Shown here: piece after piece, positions 1 through 6,257 of the stretch
How the letters are laid out: each line of letters opens with the position of its first letter
How positions within the stretch are numbered: position 1 is the first letter of the stretch
Assembly: GCA_025353105.1 (NCBI GenBank)
Contig: JANXRG010000002.1
Coordinates: 1 to 64,000 of the forward strand
From: Verrucomicrobiota bacterium
Lineage (GTDB): Bacteria > Verrucomicrobiota > Verrucomicrobiia > Chthoniobacterales > SZAS-18
Length of the DNA: 64,000 bases
Direction of reading: 5' to 3'
The notes under the pieces: generated by a model
Database searches by the model: none
Seen by the model: only the letters and a program-made list of their open reading frames with translations
What the model was told of the DNA's origin: nothing
Program-made: the position numbers and the translations under genes

Positions 1-335
1 AGCGCCATCACGGTCGCCGCCGCGCGCGCCGTGCCTCCGCCGGTGACGATGCCGATGATGGTGCCGTCCGCATTGGCCCGCACGTCGTGGAACGCGGCCG
101 GCAGCGGAATGACGCGCGAAAGCTTTTCGCGCTCGACCCAGAATTGGAATTCGCCCGGTCGGTCGCCTTCATCCGCGCCGGGTTCAAACTGCGAGACGAT
201 CACCACGCGCGGATGGAGCACTTCCTCCGCGGCGGAAGCACTCGTTGCCGCGGAGGCAATGAGAACAGGAAAAAGGAGGAAGAAAAAAGGAAGAAGACGG
301 GCCCGCGCGATTACATCGAAATTATTGGGCTTCAT
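1..335 (-). CDS. Purine nucleoside permease (NUP) family protein, exported; N-terminal part only
   Basis: Reading leftward from an ATG at 335, the frame stays open to the window edge (111 codons). It opens with a signal peptide: arginines, then a Phe/Leu-rich core (RLLPFFFLLFPVLIAS), then a small-residue region ending in SAAEE. The mature part has the family hallmark VVIVSQFEPGADEGDRPGEF, followed by FWVERE and a glycine/threonine-rich GIVTGGGTARA. These match the start of NUP proteins (PF06516). The family is named after a yeast nucleoside transporter, but its fold is believed to be nucleoside-phosphorylase-like, so the bacterial secreted members may bind or cleave nucleosides. It lies downstream of the TonB receptor on the same strand. 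The C-terminal two thirds are outside the window. Confidence 0.8.
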   Translation of the reverse strand, partial: MKPNNFDVIARARLLPFFFLLFPVLIASAATSASAAEEVLHPRVVIVSQFEPGADEGDRPGEFQFWVEREKLSRVIPLPAAFHDVRANADGTIIGIVTGGGTARAAATVMA

Positions 336-390
336 GGATTTCTCGTTGGTGCTCTCGGTGCCGGTATGGCCAATTCTTGTCGGAAACAGA

Positions 391-421
391 AAGGCCCGGA
401 GACCGTGGTCCACCGGGCCTT
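391..421 (-). terminator. Hairpin after the TonB receptor gene
   Basis: AAGGCCCGG and CCGGGCCTT form a perfect 9-bp stem around a 13-nt loop, about 20 bases past the receptor stop. The following leftward sequence is only weakly T-rich, so termination efficiency is uncertain. Confidence 0.6.
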
Positions 422-442
422 CGCGAGTCAATCCAAGCCCGA

Positions 443-2884
443 TCAGAACTTAAGTTTCACCGTGCCCGAAACTCGGATGGGCAGGTTGGCGACGACGGAG
501 TCATTCGCGTACACGGCGTTGGGCGGTGAAAAGTTTTTTTGGTCGGTCAGATTTAGCACCGACAACGCGAGTTCATAACGCTTCTGGCGGTAGAAAATCG
601 TGGCGTCGAGCGTGTACTGGGTGCGAATTTTTACCGTGCCATCGTAGTTGAGATTCTGCGGACCGGTGACTACGGCGCCCAGCGAAGCGCCCAGACCCAT
701 GTCGAGCTTGTACTGGACCAGGAAGTTAAACTGGTTTTTCGGCAGGCCCGGCTGGCGATAGTTGCCGACTGGGTAACCGGCAATCGCACCAAAGGTGTCT
801 GTCAGATTGCCGTAGTTACCGATCTGGTTGAACGGATAGGTCTGCACGCTGAATGGAGATTGGTTCTTGAAGATCGCATCAAGCAACGTGTAAGACGCCG
901 TCATCCACAGGTTCTTCGTCGGTTGGTAATTCGCTTCAATTTCGAAACCATTGACGGTCAACTTATTGTTGATGACGCCGGTATTCGTGTTGCTGGGGAT
1001 GATTCGCGTCTGGTGGAACAACGCGCTGCTGATGAAGAGCGTGTTCTTGATGAGCGATGCCTTGGCGCCGAATTCATACAGCTCGCTCACCTGGTGGAAG
1101 TAGTTGCTGGCAAATGTGCCAAGGGTGTTGCCGCCCATGACGTAGCCACCGCCGTTGGCCACGCCGGTGGACTGGCTGTAGTTATACGTGAAATACGTCG
1201 TCAACCACGGAAACGGCGAAAACGTCGGGCCGACGTTGAAGTTCGGAATTCCCATGACGGTAGAATCCGTCTTCTGTGCCGCAAACGAAGGAGCAAGCGG
1301 GTCAGTCGATTTGACGAACAGAATGTCCAAACGAGCGCCGAGGAGGAGACCGAACTTGGAGCCAAATTTTATCTCCTGCTGGAAATATGGGCTAATCGTG
1401 AAAGCGCGCGACTGGTTGGTGTCCCCGTTGAAGACGCCGGGGGAGGCGAAGCGCCCGGGATGCCCAAGGAAGGCCAGCGATTGCGATCCACCCGCGAGCT
1501 GGTTGATATAATTGATCTCACTGCGCGGCCGGCTGAGGTCCCACGCATTGGCGGGCTCATTGAAGTAATCGTTATACGCGTTCACCTGCTGGTAGCGCAG
1601 TTCGACTCCGGCGTTGGTCGCCAATTTTAAATGCCAGCCGCCGCCGCCCTTCGTGACGGTTTTCCCGTCCTTGTCCGTGATCGTCCCCACCGTCCCGCCC
1701 ATCGGGATGTCGAAGTTGAGCTTGAACTCCGTGCGGTTCGCAATGGCAAAGTTATTGTCGAGAATTTCCGAATAATAGTAAGAGCTTAACGTTCCTCGAT
1801 TCACGTAATAAAAGAACGTGTTGTTCACGATGCTGACGGTGTCGTTGATCTTCAGGGTCTGAACCACCTGCGCGCTGAAGCTGCGGCCGCTCGAGCCATC
1901 CCCGGGGGCCAGCAGCCGCACGCTGCGGGCGAGGTTGACCGTCGGGCCCGGGGTGACGGTGTTGAAGCCGCCGAAAATGATCTGATTGTTTTGCACGCCA
2001 TTCAACAGACCCACGGTGCCGGTGATATAGCGCCCGTGGTCGATTAAGTCCTGAGTCGGACGATTAATGCCGAAGTTCTCGGTGTAATCGGCCCAGAAGC
2101 CTTCAAAATTGAAATCCAAGGTGTAATTCGCGCTCGGGGTCCATGTCAGTGCGGTGTAAAGCGCCTGCGTGTATTGGTGGCCATTCTCGTAAAAGCTTCC
2201 GGATTCTTCGCCGGCGAAACTCACGCGAAAGGCCAGCTTGTCCTTAATGATCGGGCCCCCGAAGTCGGCTTGGTAAAGGTATTGGCCATACGAGCCGAAC
2301 GTCGCGCCGACGTTGCCCTGAAACTTGTCGAAATACGGGCGCTTCGTGTTCAGGTTGACTGAGCCGCCGGTGTATTGCGACACGCCGAGAATGACGGTCG
2401 GCGGGCCCTTGATGATGTCCACGGATTCGACCGAGTTAAAATTGACGGGCAGGCCGTTGCCATTCGAGGTCAGGCCGCGGCGCATGCCATTGACGAACAG
2501 GTCGGCCGTCTGGCCGCGGATGCTCGGATTCGACGGCGCGCCGAAATTACTCGGCGTGTAGCTCGAAGACGTGAGCTTGGAAAAATCGCGCACGTCGAAG
2601 ATGGCGATGGTGTCGAGTTGTTCGCGCGAGATGACGGTGACGTTGCGCGGGACATCGAGGATGTTGCTGTCGAGACCGAACGCCGAGCTGAAGGGGCGGA
2701 CGGTGGGCAGGACAGATTCCTCAATCGGCGTGTCCGTCACGACGACGCGCGCCGGGCTGGCGGTAGTTGCCGGCGTGGTGCCGGAAGCATCCTGGGCGAG
2801 CAGGAGCGGAGTGCAGGCGAGACCGGCAAAGCCGGCCACAAGGGCTCGAAGGGCGGAAACACGTTGGGTTTTCAAGTGAGGCAA
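443..2884 (-). CDS. TonB-dependent outer membrane receptor
   Basis: An 813-residue outer-membrane receptor, the usual length for siderophore-type TonB-dependent transporters. A signal peptide ends near LLLAQDAS. The plug domain spans about residues 60-180 (DVPRNVTVISREQLD, NPSIRGQ, VESVDIIKGPPTVILG, GGSVNLNTKRP). The rest is a beta-barrel with many aromatic-alternating strands, ending in the C-terminal phenylalanine (VKLKF) typical of outer membrane proteins. The start is a TTG at 2884; a second TTG three codons on would also give a good signal peptide. The plug resembles ferric-siderophore receptors, but NUP, nucleosidase and urate oxidase neighbours suggest a purine-related or adenosyl substrate. 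That substrate is inference. No TonB, ExbB or ExbD gene is in the window. Confidence 0.9.
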   Translation of the reverse strand: MPHLKTQRVSALRALVAGFAGLACTPLLLAQDASGTTPATTASPARVVVTDTPIEESVLPTVRPFSSAFGLDSNILDVPRNVTVISREQLDTIAIFDVRDFSKLTSSSYTPSNFGAPSNPSIRGQTADLFVNGMRRGLTSNGNGLPVNFNSVESVDIIKGPPTVILGVSQYTGGSVNLNTKRPYFDKFQGNVGATFGSYGQYLYQADFGGPIIKDKLAFRVSFAGEESGSFYENGHQYTQALYTALTWTPSANYTLDFNFEGFWADYTENFGINRPTQDLIDHGRYITGTVGLLNGVQNNQIIFGGFNTVTPGPTVNLARSVRLLAPGDGSSGRSFSAQVVQTLKINDTVSIVNNTFFYYVNRGTLSSYYYSEILDNNFAIANRTEFKLNFDIPMGGTVGTITDKDGKTVTKGGGGWHLKLATNAGVELRYQQVNAYNDYFNEPANAWDLSRPRSEINYINQLAGGSQSLAFLGHPGRFASPGVFNGDTNQSRAFTISPYFQQEIKFGSKFGLLLGARLDILFVKSTDPLAPSFAAQKTDSTVMGIPNFNVGPTFSPFPWLTTYFTYNYSQSTGVANGGGYVMGGNTLGTFASNYFHQVSELYEFGAKASLIKNTLFISSALFHQTRIIPSNTNTGVINNKLTVNGFEIEANYQPTKNLWMTASYTLLDAIFKNQSPFSVQTYPFNQIGNYGNLTDTFGAIAGYPVGNYRQPGLPKNQFNFLVQYKLDMGLGASLGAVVTGPQNLNYDGTVKIRTQYTLDATIFYRQKRYELALSVLNLTDQKNFSPPNAVYANDSVVANLPIRVSGTVKLKF

Positions 2885-2903
2885 GGTGAAGGAGTTAGCA
2901 CGC

Positions 2904-2933
2904 GATATGCCACCAATTGAATTCCTGCGTCAA
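2904..2933 (-). promoter_or_regulatory. Possible sigma-70-type promoter for the TonB receptor
   Basis: On the minus strand TTGACG and CATATC are separated by 18 bases, about 20 bases upstream of the receptor start. The match is partial and the leader would be very short. Confidence 0.3.
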
Positions 2934-3037
2934 TCCAGTGTCACGACAAGTTTGTAACATTTTTGGCCGCGTCGGGTGTGGTTATTTTCCGCCAAGGAAT
3001 CGTTGCGGCTGGTGAGAATCGCGCTTTGTGTCCGGGC

Positions 3038-4090
3038 ATGAATCACCTCGCGCGGTTCGGCCTCGCGGTCCTCGTCGCGACCGCGATCCAAGCCGCCGAG
3101 CCGCGCATGACTGAGAGCGAGCTCGCCGGGGCAAAATATGTCATCGCCGCACCGGAGAAGTGGAACGGCTCGGTGCTGATCTACTGCCACGGCCTGCGAC
3201 CGGAGGGCGGTCCGCTGATGGTCGAACTGCTCCCGCTGAAAACCGCATACGCCGAACTGCTTGACCGCGGATGGATCATCGCGGCCACGAGCTACCGACG
3301 GAATGGGCTCGTCGTCGCCGACGGTCTGGCCGACGTGCTCGCTCTCCGCGACGAAATCGCCAAGCGCTTCGGCGCTCCGAGCCGCGTCGTTTTGCATGGC
3401 GAGAGCATGGGCGGTGCAATCGCCACCCTGTTGATGGAACGCGAGCCGGCGAAATTTTCCGGCGCCCTTGCCGTCGGCGCGGCCTTGAAATTGGACGAGA
3501 ACGGCGCGCCGGTGACATTCGCGTCGCGACCCGGCGGCCCCCTGCTTTTCTTAAGCAACCGGACCGAGGTCGCAGAACCGCGCCATTATGCGGAACTCGC
3601 ACCGGGAGCCCAAGCACGGCCGGTCGTGTGGACGGCGGATCGGGACGGTCACGTCAACGTCAACCAGCGCGAGATTGGCACGGCCCTCGCAGCGCTTAAT
3701 CGCTGGATCGACACCGGCACGGCCCCGGCTGAGCAGGACGACACGCTCGCGCCCGAGCCGCGGGCCTCGGCAATGACGCTCGAAAATGGCGCCGGCCGCG
3801 CCGCGATGACGCAGCGCAACCCGCTCTTCGGCAACATCACGCTGGATTTTCAAGCGTCCGACTTCGCCCAGCTGGGCATCGCGCGGGGCGACAATTTCAC
3901 GCTCGAGTTCGGCGGCAAACGCGTTCCCGTCCGGCTCGGCACCACCTACAGCGACGTCCCGCGCGGACAGTATGTGGCGTTCTTTGATGCGGAGGATCGA
4001 TTGCTCATCGCCATCAACTACGGCAACGCCGCTGATGCGCTTGGGATCAATGTCGGTGACACCGCGCGGGTGACGAGGGCCGCGCCGTAG
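3038..4090 (+). CDS. Exported alpha/beta-hydrolase fused to a SAM-hydroxide-adenosyltransferase-like C-terminal domain
   Basis: ATG at 3038 gives 350 residues and a signal peptide (MNHLARFGLAVLVATAIQAA); a longer TTG-started frame lacks this. Residues 35-240 look like an alpha/beta-hydrolase: YCHG oxyanion strand, nucleophile elbow HGESMGGA with Ser123, and a DRDGH segment that could supply the histidine. Residues about 262-350 match the C-terminal barrel of the SAM hydrolase/fluorinase family (DUF62): FGN, LGIARGDNFTLEFGG, TTYSDVPRG, LLIAINYGNAADALGINVGD. The N-terminal catalytic domain of that family is absent, so SAM hydrolysis cannot be assumed; the barrel may serve adenosyl recognition. 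It is transcribed away from the TonB receptor and toward the nucleosidase gene. Domain assignments are by eye. Confidence 0.75.
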   Translation: MNHLARFGLAVLVATAIQAAEPRMTESELAGAKYVIAAPEKWNGSVLIYCHGLRPEGGPLMVELLPLKTAYAELLDRGWIIAATSYRRNGLVVADGLADVLALRDEIAKRFGAPSRVVLHGESMGGAIATLLMEREPAKFSGALAVGAALKLDENGAPVTFASRPGGPLLFLSNRTEVAEPRHYAELAPGAQARPVVWTADRDGHVNVNQREIGTALAALNRWIDTGTAPAEQDDTLAPEPRASAMTLENGAGRAAMTQRNPLFGNITLDFQASDFAQLGIARGDNFTLEFGGKRVPVRLGTTYSDVPRGQYVAFFDAEDRLLIAINYGNAADALGINVGDTARVTRAAP

Positions 4091-4167
4091 CGCCGGTTTG
4101 AATTGAGTTGCGCTGGTTCATCAAACCCTTCGCATCACAATCGGGACACGGCATGGCTTCTCACGCA

Positions 4168-4267
4168 GGTGGATCGTGACCTCCGGGCACGATGCCAGGG
4201 AATTTGGCGGCCCGCGTGGGCGGGCCGCATTCATTTTCGCCAACGCGCTCGGCGATCGCGTTCCACC
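4168..4267. repeat. REP-like intergenic palindromic element, copy 1
   Basis: Imperfect 24-nt outer arms (4168-4191 and 4244-4267, 18 of 24 paired) enclose a perfect 9-bp hairpin GCGGCCCGC/GCGGGCCGC at 4207-4228. The right arm ends in GATCGCGTTCCACC, shared with the elements at 16795-16891 and 49225-49414. The 286-bp gap between the two convergent genes shows nothing else. Confidence 0.6.
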
Positions 4268-4376
4268 AAGCCCGCCTTAGTGCGATCGGGAGGACGAATT
4301 CGAGTGAAGCCGGGGCACCGAATCTCGCCGGTGCATCGGCGAGTTTGCTTAGGGTCCTATGATGACCTTGCCGTTA

Positions 4377-5300
4377 TCACTCCGCGGTCGACAGGATTTG
4401 CTCCAACACGAGCGCCGAGTGCTCCGCGGCGGTCTTGAGGTAAATCTCCTCCTCGTTCGGACCGGCCTGTCCGCCGGCGAGGTCGCTCAAGCCCCGCACG
4501 ATGAGGCAGGGAATCTTGTTCGCCCAGCACACATGCGCGATGGCGGCCGATTCCATGTCGAGGCATTCCGCTTTCCACACGGAAAAGACGAACTCGCGAT
4601 ACTGGGCGTTGTCGCAAAACACGGTGCCGCTCACTCCGGTCCCGCCGTAGTTCACCTTGCAGGCGCGGCCCTTCAGCATCGGCGGCTTGAGCGCGACCAG
4701 AGCGCGCTTCGCTAGTGCAATCAAGCCCGGGTCGGCGGGAAACGTGGCGAGCTGAACGTAGTCCGGCAGGCCCGCGCGGATGACCGTGACGTCGTCCGGG
4801 AAGAACATATGGAAGTTCGGATAGTGCGGCTTCAGATACGGCGGCACCTGAAATTTTCCGGGTTCGCGCTCGTTGAGCAGCGCGCCTTCGCCGTGGTAAG
4901 CCCAGCGCTCAGGGATGACCACGTCGCCCGGCGCATAGGCCGGATTGATGCCACCCGCGATGCCGGTGAAGAACACCTCCTTCACGGGGAATTTCGAAAG
5001 CGCGAGTTGCGTCGTCATCGCCGCGTTCGCCACGCTCATGCCGGAAAGAAAAAACAGGCAGCGGCGCCTCCCGACGTAGGCCGATTCAAACGCGACGCCG
5101 TTGATCGTCGTCATCTTGAGCGTGCCCTTGCGATCGAGCACGAGGACCTTCTTCATCGCCGTCAGCTCCTCCGGAAATGACGCCATCACGATGCTGTACG
5201 GGGGCAGGGCGGCTGGTTTCCGGCTCTTCGCCCTCGCGTGCGGCGCGACAACGAGGGCGAGAAGAAAGACGAGCGAGGGAAGCGTTCGGCGGTGGAGCAT
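4377..5300 (-). CDS. Exported MTA/SAH nucleosidase-like protein (PNP/UDP phosphorylase superfamily)
   Basis: A purine nucleosidase/phosphorylase-fold protein of about 307 residues with an N-terminal signal sequence (LPSLVFLLALVVAPHARA), so it probably acts in the periplasm. Superfamily motifs: SGMSVANAAMTTQLAL, VFFTGIAGGINPAYAPGDVV (phosphate/ribose loop) and LDMESAAIAHVC with RGLSDLAG, matching the Glu that binds ribose and the catalytic Asp of MTA/SAH nucleosidases (MTAN). An ATG at 5300 is preferred over an upstream GTG because it opens directly on the signal peptide. Cytosolic MTAN enzymes are about 230 residues; the extra length is the signal plus an insertion around HYPNFHMFFPDD. Likely substrates are adenosine, MTA, SAH or another purine nucleoside. 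Neighbours are urate oxidase upstream and the SAM-HAT-like hydrolase, convergent. Confidence 0.8.
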   Translation of the reverse strand: MLHRRTLPSLVFLLALVVAPHARAKSRKPAALPPYSIVMASFPEELTAMKKVLVLDRKGTLKMTTINGVAFESAYVGRRRCLFFLSGMSVANAAMTTQLALSKFPVKEVFFTGIAGGINPAYAPGDVVIPERWAYHGEGALLNEREPGKFQVPPYLKPHYPNFHMFFPDDVTVIRAGLPDYVQLATFPADPGLIALAKRALVALKPPMLKGRACKVNYGGTGVSGTVFCDNAQYREFVFSVWKAECLDMESAAIAHVCWANKIPCLIVRGLSDLAGGQAGPNEEEIYLKTAAEHSALVLEQILSTAE

Positions 5301-5381
5301 GTGGATGGAAGTGGGAATGGGCACCGGGTGCGCGGCGGCCGCTGACCGCAGGATTCATTCCGCGCGCGGATTCGGGGGCGG

Positions 5382-6257
5382 TCAATTTGTCCGCTCAACC
5401 GTTGCCTCGATCTGGCCTTGCGGTTCATCGGTCGGCACAAAAACCTCGCGCCGGTCCTCGAGGCCAAGCGAGGCGAATGGCACGGAAAGATAATGGCGAT
5501 TCGGGAGCGCCAAGGTCACCCGCTCGATCTCCGCCACCGCCGTCATGGCCGCGCGCCCCATGGAAAAGAGCGTCGCCTGCACCGACTCGCTGAAATCGGT
5601 GGCGAAGACCCGAAGCATCGCCTCAAGCGCGGCGGCATTCGCCTCCCTGAAATGCGCCGGCCCCGCACGAAAATCCCAACGCGCCTTCATCAGCGTGGAA
5701 AAGAAACGATCCCGGGTTTCCGGCAGCGTGGTCCACGCGTCCTTCAAATAGCCCGAGAATGCCGAGGCCGTGGTCTTGATCACGCGGACGTCATCCACTC
5801 CCGAGGTAAATCGCGGTGCACCGTCACGCGGCGTCGTCACCTCCGCCGTCCAGCGGTACGGCTGACGGTGCATGAACGAGTGCGGGTGCGGCCTGCCGTC
5901 CACGGCGATGCGTTCCCACGAAAGCTCGCTCAGGGTCGCCGTGACCGCCGACATAAATGGGCTCTGGGTGAGGAGATGCTGCCCGATGAGCGCACCAAAT
6001 TCCTCCGCGGTGCGAATCTCGTGCTTCGACGCGAGGGCGTACACCGTGTTCTTGATCGTGTCCGTGGGCAGGATGTGCGCATTGTCGCCGGCCGCGAAAC
6101 AGGCCGCGAAATCGCCGGTCGCGAGCACGTCGATCGTAAATTCGCGCAAATCGTGCACGCCATCCGCCCCGCGAACGACCTTCGCGACCCGCACGCGCGC
6201 CTTGCCGTAGCGATTCGCGCCCAATTCAAAGCCGTCGCCCGGATTCATCGCCGCCAT
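5382..6257 (-). CDS. pucL: Urate oxidase (factor-independent urate hydroxylase)
   Basis: Oxidises urate with O2 to 5-hydroxyisourate and H2O2, the step leading toward allantoin. The 291-residue length is normal for uricase. Family landmarks are all present: NRYGKARVRVAKV with the catalytic Lys (Lys19), PTDTIKNTVYALA with the catalytic Thr (Thr65), TLSELSWERI, HPHSFMH, VIKTTASAFSGYLKD, the substrate Arg in TRDRFFSTLMKARW, the Gln in SVQATLFSMG, and LPNRHYL with the active-site His. A second Met at residue 4 is an alternative start. No signal peptide is seen, so it is cytoplasmic. It lies 81 bp upstream of the exported nucleosidase on the same strand, which supports a purine-use locus. HIU hydrolase and OHCU decarboxylase are not in the window. 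Confidence 0.95.
   Translation of the reverse strand: MAAMNPGDGFELGANRYGKARVRVAKVVRGADGVHDLREFTIDVLATGDFAACFAAGDNAHILPTDTIKNTVYALASKHEIRTAEEFGALIGQHLLTQSPFMSAVTATLSELSWERIAVDGRPHPHSFMHRQPYRWTAEVTTPRDGAPRFTSGVDDVRVIKTTASAFSGYLKDAWTTLPETRDRFFSTLMKARWDFRAGPAHFREANAAALEAMLRVFATDFSESVQATLFSMGRAAMTAVAEIERVTLALPNRHYLSVPFASLGLEDRREVFVPTDEPQGQIEATVERTN

Follow-up and report, generated by a model that had tools for sequence, protein, structure and literature searches.

Nucleoside and ribose utilisation loci of the SusC/SusD type, linked to TonB, are known from Bacteroides thetaiotaomicron. Sets of purine catabolic genes are also known (xanthine dehydrogenase (XDH), uricase, OHCU decarboxylase, allantoinase and permeases of the NAT and AzgA types), and these act on bases imported through porins. 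Here we describe a locus at the start of a 64,000-nucleotide stretch of DNA from a Verrucomicrobiota bacterium (contig JANXRG010000002.1, positions 1 to 64,000; hereafter the window), in which a TonB-dependent receptor (TBDR) lies among genes for purine metabolism. The likeness to the B. thetaiotaomicron loci is in TonB-dependent outer-membrane uptake tied to nucleoside breakdown. Those loci have SusC/SusD pairs and ribose use, whereas the window locus has a lone TBDR with no SusD seen, its exported enzymes are adenosine deaminase (ADA), NUP and an MTAN-like protein, and its route leads to urate and allantoin. The window's genome contains the same cytosolic enzymes and inner-membrane permeases as the known catabolic sets, but here they are linked to a dedicated TonB receptor and to a putatively periplasmic deaminase and nucleosidases. 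The gene content, and its recurrence in other genomes, is best explained by a purine-utilisation locus with its own TonB receptor, a reading to which we give a probability of roughly 0.77. The earlier note on this DNA knew of no described system with this combination; our search of the open literature returned no account of a TonB receptor combined with NUP or purine genes, and this novelty is provisional, subscription papers being mostly outside the search. We provisionally regard the locus as a variation on TonB-linked nutrient-utilisation loci, TonB-linked nucleoside use being already known in Bacteroides. The features of the locus are as follows.

1..335, minus strand: 5′ part, with signal peptide, of a NUP gene (PF06516, 49 bits), truncated at the contig end
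388..422, minus strand: hairpin in the gap between the TBDR and NUP genes (35 bases, -25.8 kcal/mol, z -3.3)
443..2884, minus strand: TonB-dependent outer-membrane receptor (Plug domain, PF07715)
3038..4090, plus strand: exported alpha/beta-hydrolase (PF12146) fused to SAM_HAT_C (PF20257, 55 bits), divergent from the TBDR gene
4377..5324, minus strand: exported MTAN-like PNP_UDP_1 protein (PNP; 116 bits), with its start at GTG 5324 or ATG 5300
5382..6257, minus strand: urate oxidase (uricase), cytosolic (TIGR03383, 288 bits), directly upstream of the PNP gene

All five genes that had been described as lying side by side are present, as domain scores and coordinates confirm, but two key partners, ADA and an AzgA permease, lie outside the window. 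Contig C15 ends at position 1, inside the NUP gene. The last 313 bases of contig C45 (G000:C45:20220-20532) match the first 313 of C15 (window:1-313) at 97%, end to end and in the same orientation. Such a match is expected from two variants in one metagenome assembly, indicating that strain variation is likely to have broken the assembly inside NUP. On C45 the same strand continues with the full NUP gene, an ADA gene whose product has an apparent signal peptide and whose start overlaps the NUP end, and, 38 bases further, an AzgA-type permease gene. The join was drawn from this overlap and not from a spanning read; it is supported by the order TBDR-NUP-AzgA on one contig of another genome (G039). 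Across the join we infer an operon that reads TBDR-NUP-ADA-AzgA. The strand arrangement gives at least three transcription units (uricase-PNP and TBDR-NUP, each on the minus strand, with the plus-strand hydrolase gene between the two), and the five genes of the window do not form a single operon. The hairpin between TBDR and NUP is a possible terminator or attenuator, or a 3′ stem of the mRNA; a terminator scan found 5 against 8.3 expected. The signal peptides of NUP, the hydrolase and PNP were read from the sequence without a dedicated predictor.

The linkage is conserved. Of 157 genomes of the order, 8 encode the exported PNP; NUP is encoded in 6, each of which also carries the PNP (P=1.5e-9). 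Of 388 genomes of the phylum, 25 carry a NUP scoring above the cut-off and 28 carry the receptor (E<=1e-80); the two occur together in 16 (P=5e-15). The NUP and receptor genes lie within about 5 kb of each other in eight genomes in all, with spacings of 227 to 5110 bases in the seven besides the window's. Receptor orthologues adjoin purine genes in many Opitutia, and 26 of the 46 receptors placed on a tree have a purine neighbour within 6 kb. On that tree the trait of having such a neighbour changes 7 times against a shuffled mean of 15.2, and none of 500 shuffles was as low. The neighbours, in varying order, are NUP, ADA, AzgA and NAT permeases, adenine deaminase, PNP, XDH, XdhC and uricase. 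The arrangements seen are TBDR-NUP-AzgA (L030, identical with L046), NUP-AzgA (L034), TBDR-NUP-ADA (L050), ADA-AzgA-NUP divergent from TBDR (L057, L078), TBDR-PNPb-ADA-adenine deaminase (L061), adenine deaminase-TBDR-NAT permease (L051, L087) and uricase-XdhC-XDH-ABC-TBDR (L048). The genes persist while their order shifts, a pattern that speaks for selection on the gene set rather than mere shared descent. Around the four other Plug proteins encoded in the window's genome, none of the queried purine genes was present. The earlier note had named as a possible refutation that these genes are never clustered elsewhere; with receptor homologues adjoining NUP, ADA, adenine deaminase, AzgA or NAT permeases, PNP or XDH in many genomes, that outcome is itself refuted.

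The TBDR has 813 residues and ends in an aromatic residue (Phe). It has both the Plug domain (39 bits, over the cut-off) and the C-terminal barrel of a TonB-dependent receptor, with conservation extending to the C-terminus. None of the neighbours annotated on C15 and C45 is a SusD lipoprotein gene, so that a SusC/SusD pair of the PUL type is not seen here. It scores 124.5 bits against the TonB-dependent siderophore receptor model TIGR01783, below the cut-off of 223.5, and its best solved relative, the enantio-pyochelin receptor, matches at only 51 bits. Assignment as a siderophore receptor was rejected on these scores and on the purine-gene neighbours; the tight grouping with characterised siderophore receptors that would have spoken against purine uptake is not seen.

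The full NUP protein (P0001, 362 residues, read from the overlap) matches PF06516 at 378 bits over positions 2-311 of 313. The family is named "purine nucleoside permease", but P0001 is unlikely to be a permease itself. According to a published analysis, the NUP profile belongs to the purine and uridine phosphorylase superfamily (PMC9815663). We compared a profile of 26 NUPs with one of 13 exported PNPs and obtained E values of 3e-7 (global) and 4e-4 (local), against 0.14 to 0.84 for uricase, ADA and hydrolase controls. An earlier comparison with shallow alignments had given a probability of 1.3, and a NUP homologue modelled with AlphaFold from an alignment of three rows reached a pLDDT of 41. 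In the profile alignment the NUP motifs MED and RTASN fall on the PNP motifs MES and RGLSD, with Asn replacing the base-contacting Asp. NUP is thus probably a periplasmic nucleoside-cleaving enzyme. In one genome (G375, L083:12050-14179) two tandem NUP domains share a 710-residue open frame.

The window PNP belongs to the MTAN/PNP superfamily (PF01048, 116 bits), and its closest solved relatives are nucleosidases of methylthioadenosine (MTA) and S-adenosylhomocysteine (SAH). Residues E45, M249-E250 and D273 are invariant across seven homologues and presumably correspond to E12, M173-E174 and D197 of E. coli MTAN. The catalytic Glu, Met-Glu and Asp are therefore kept, but the window protein differs from MTAN in being exported and larger (315 residues with signal peptide and inserts), and it falls below the MTAN equivalog cut-offs (66.5 against 73.8 bits for TIGR01704 and 107 against 169 for PRK05584). 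The Asn of NUP and the Asp of the MTAN-like enzyme at the base-contact position suggest, from superfamily knowledge, a preference for 6-oxopurines in the former and for 6-aminopurines in the latter. Uricase exceeds its equivalog cut-off (288 against 168 bits).

The C45 permease is of the AzgA type; its nearest solved relatives are the adenine/guanine permeases AZG1 and AZG2 (E 1e-71), with AZG1 the nearest. NAT permeases beside receptor homologues carry the motif QNNGVIQ[IL]T and are nearest to the uric acid-xanthine permease. In a crude scan, ADA, NUP and PNP of the receptor loci mostly have an apparent signal peptide; adenine deaminase has none and was taken as cytosolic. Elsewhere, the window's genome encodes adenine deaminase and a fused xanthine dehydrogenase (TIGR02965, 941 bits), and its genes for OHCU decarboxylase, allantoate amidohydrolase and allantoinase are clustered. 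With this set present, the genome can probably use purines down to allantoate and beyond. The whole gene set fits nucleosides and bases, and nothing in it appears to require iron.

From the observed gene content, families and order, the conserved linkage and the presence of the catabolic genes, we propose a pathway in which the ligand, the direction of transport, the enzyme specificities and their localisation are predicted. The TonB receptor would import purine compounds through the outer membrane; nucleosides and/or bases are the likeliest, and adenosyl compounds may be among them. In the periplasm, exported ADA would convert adenosine to inosine, and the MTAN-like enzyme (Asp, 6-aminopurines) and NUP (Asn, 6-oxopurines) would cut the N-glycosidic bond. 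The AzgA-type permease would carry adenine, guanine or hypoxanthine across the inner membrane, and adenine deaminase, XDH, uricase, OHCU decarboxylase, allantoinase and allantoate amidohydrolase would degrade the ring in the cytoplasm for nitrogen and carbon. The earlier note had likewise proposed import of a purine ligand, release of the base by periplasmic enzymes and oxidation inside; conserved linkage and the catabolic genes support this outline, while its adenosyl part was overstated. Set against its list of ligands (S-adenosylmethionine (SAM), MTA, a nucleoside or a nucleoside antibiotic), purine nucleosides and bases generally are the most economical choice, and SAM, MTA and an antibiotic less so.

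Several observations weigh against a dedicated purine receptor. Nucleosides and bases are small enough for porins and would not obviously need a TonB receptor. In the window's genome the receptor lies apart from XDH and the ureide genes, and the receptor homologues of L053-L056, L058, L066, L094, L096 and L103 have no recognised purine neighbour. Most of the genomes are metagenome-assembled; the species are related, so that genome counts overstate independence, and the Fisher tests behind the P values above ignore phylogeny.

The main competing explanation, which overlaps with ours and which we consider rather unlikely, is that the locus scavenges adenosyl compounds: the receptor would import SAM, MTA, SAH or another 5′-substituted adenosine, an exported SAM_HAT (in the relatives) or the SAM_HAT_C hydrolase (in the window) together with the MTAN-like enzyme would release adenosine or adenine, and general purine catabolism would follow. 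The SAM hydroxide adenosyltransferase/(R)-SAM hydrolase family (SAM_HAT, DUF62) is represented in the window by its C-domain and in related loci by the full enzyme. The earlier note counted the window hydrolase, with its SAM-HAT-type domain, among the enzymes of an adenosyl system, which is not supported. The protein has SAM_HAT_C, including the family's FGN and INxGNAA-type motifs, but lacks the N-terminal catalytic domain SAM_HAT_N and so is not a SAM_HAT enzyme. It is restricted to the genus in our genome sample and is present in two sister genomes without receptor, NUP or PNP; in one of them (G030, L042) it is divergent from an AzgA permease gene. As sister genomes carry it without the remaining genes, its place as a core member was rejected as unproven; it may belong to the system, of which it is the least secure part. 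For the family as a whole the adenosyl idea is alive. Clustering of unlabelled neighbours revealed full-length SAM_HAT proteins near the receptor in eight related loci (L077:6184-7200, L078:12932-13864, L080:12893-13807, L081:6075-7070, L086:13835-14869, L090:6144-7202, L057:8740-9822 and L050:7205-7777), all with apparent signal peptides. In L077 and L078 the receptor, SAM_HAT and NAT permease genes are consecutive. D97, R104 and H157 are conserved in these proteins within the motifs DPGVGTxR and TFHGRD; published work on the archaeal enzyme assigns this Asp, Arg and His to its water-activating triad. The kinship of the window PNP to MTA/SAH nucleosidases points the same way. On the other side, the joined C15/C45 locus has no full SAM_HAT, many receptor loci without SAM_HAT do have adenine deaminase, ADA or permeases, the PNP is under the MTAN equivalog cut-offs, and MTA use needs neither ADA nor NUP, two genes that point to plain nucleosides. 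In its fullest form, which we hold to be equally doubtful, the idea would let Opitutia process external adenosyl compounds in the periplasm, with a TonB receptor dedicated to SAM or related 5′-substituted adenosines, an exported SAM hydrolase, then periplasmic deamination and depurination, and only bases entering the cytoplasm. The SAM_HAT C-domain of the window would then have been joined to an alpha/beta-hydrolase that acts on an adenosyl ester.

Scarce or large ligands are the usual cargo of TonB receptors, and this would suit a larger purine-bearing ligand such as nucleic acid, NAD or nucleotides, with the periplasmic enzymes finishing its breakdown. Further downstream on C45, after a few other genes, is one for an ADP-ribosylglycohydrolase (L012:13027-14226), but it may not recur elsewhere, and no exported nuclease or nucleotidase was found among the annotated proteins common to at least three loci; we judge this explanation improbable. 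Less probable still is a receptor for an iron-siderophore or other metal whose proximity to purine genes is accidental or only regulatory. The best family matches of the TBDR are indeed siderophore-type models and the enantio-pyochelin receptor, but they are weak and under the cut-offs, no siderophore gene was seen adjoining the receptor, and purine genes recur with it across several families in rearranged orders.

Iron, cobalamin and glycans are the ligands to which most TonB receptors are assigned, and a family recurrently linked to purines would give receptors now labelled siderophore-like a specific, testable ligand class. If purine uptake by this route is correct, the reading of NUP as a permease would be corrected and Verrucomicrobiota would have a high-affinity route to nitrogen from dissolved purines. 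Exported SAM hydrolases would be unusual and raise the question of how adenosyl compounds are used outside the cytoplasm.

Other genes were seen near the receptor or its homologues. An NMT1/THI5-like ABC transporter (binding protein, ATPase and permease) lies between a fused XDH gene and the receptor orthologue in L036/L048 (G076:C118) and L038/L047 (G022), and is a possible further importer of purines or pyrimidines. A GTP cyclohydrolase II-like protein of about 540 residues adjoins or lies near the receptor (L050:203-1831, L095:4640-6475) and may be a URC1-like nucleobase catabolic protein. In L051, L060, L063 and L064 a conserved exported protein of about 1020 residues comes after the receptor and a NAT permease, and then a family 2 glycosyltransferase and an epimerase; the exported protein has no Pfam match in its homologue-like neighbour L058. 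In the window itself, uricase is adjoined on the opposite strand by a 902-residue protein (window:6363-9071) with a GH72/GH2-like glycoside hydrolase domain and a family 2 glycosyltransferase.
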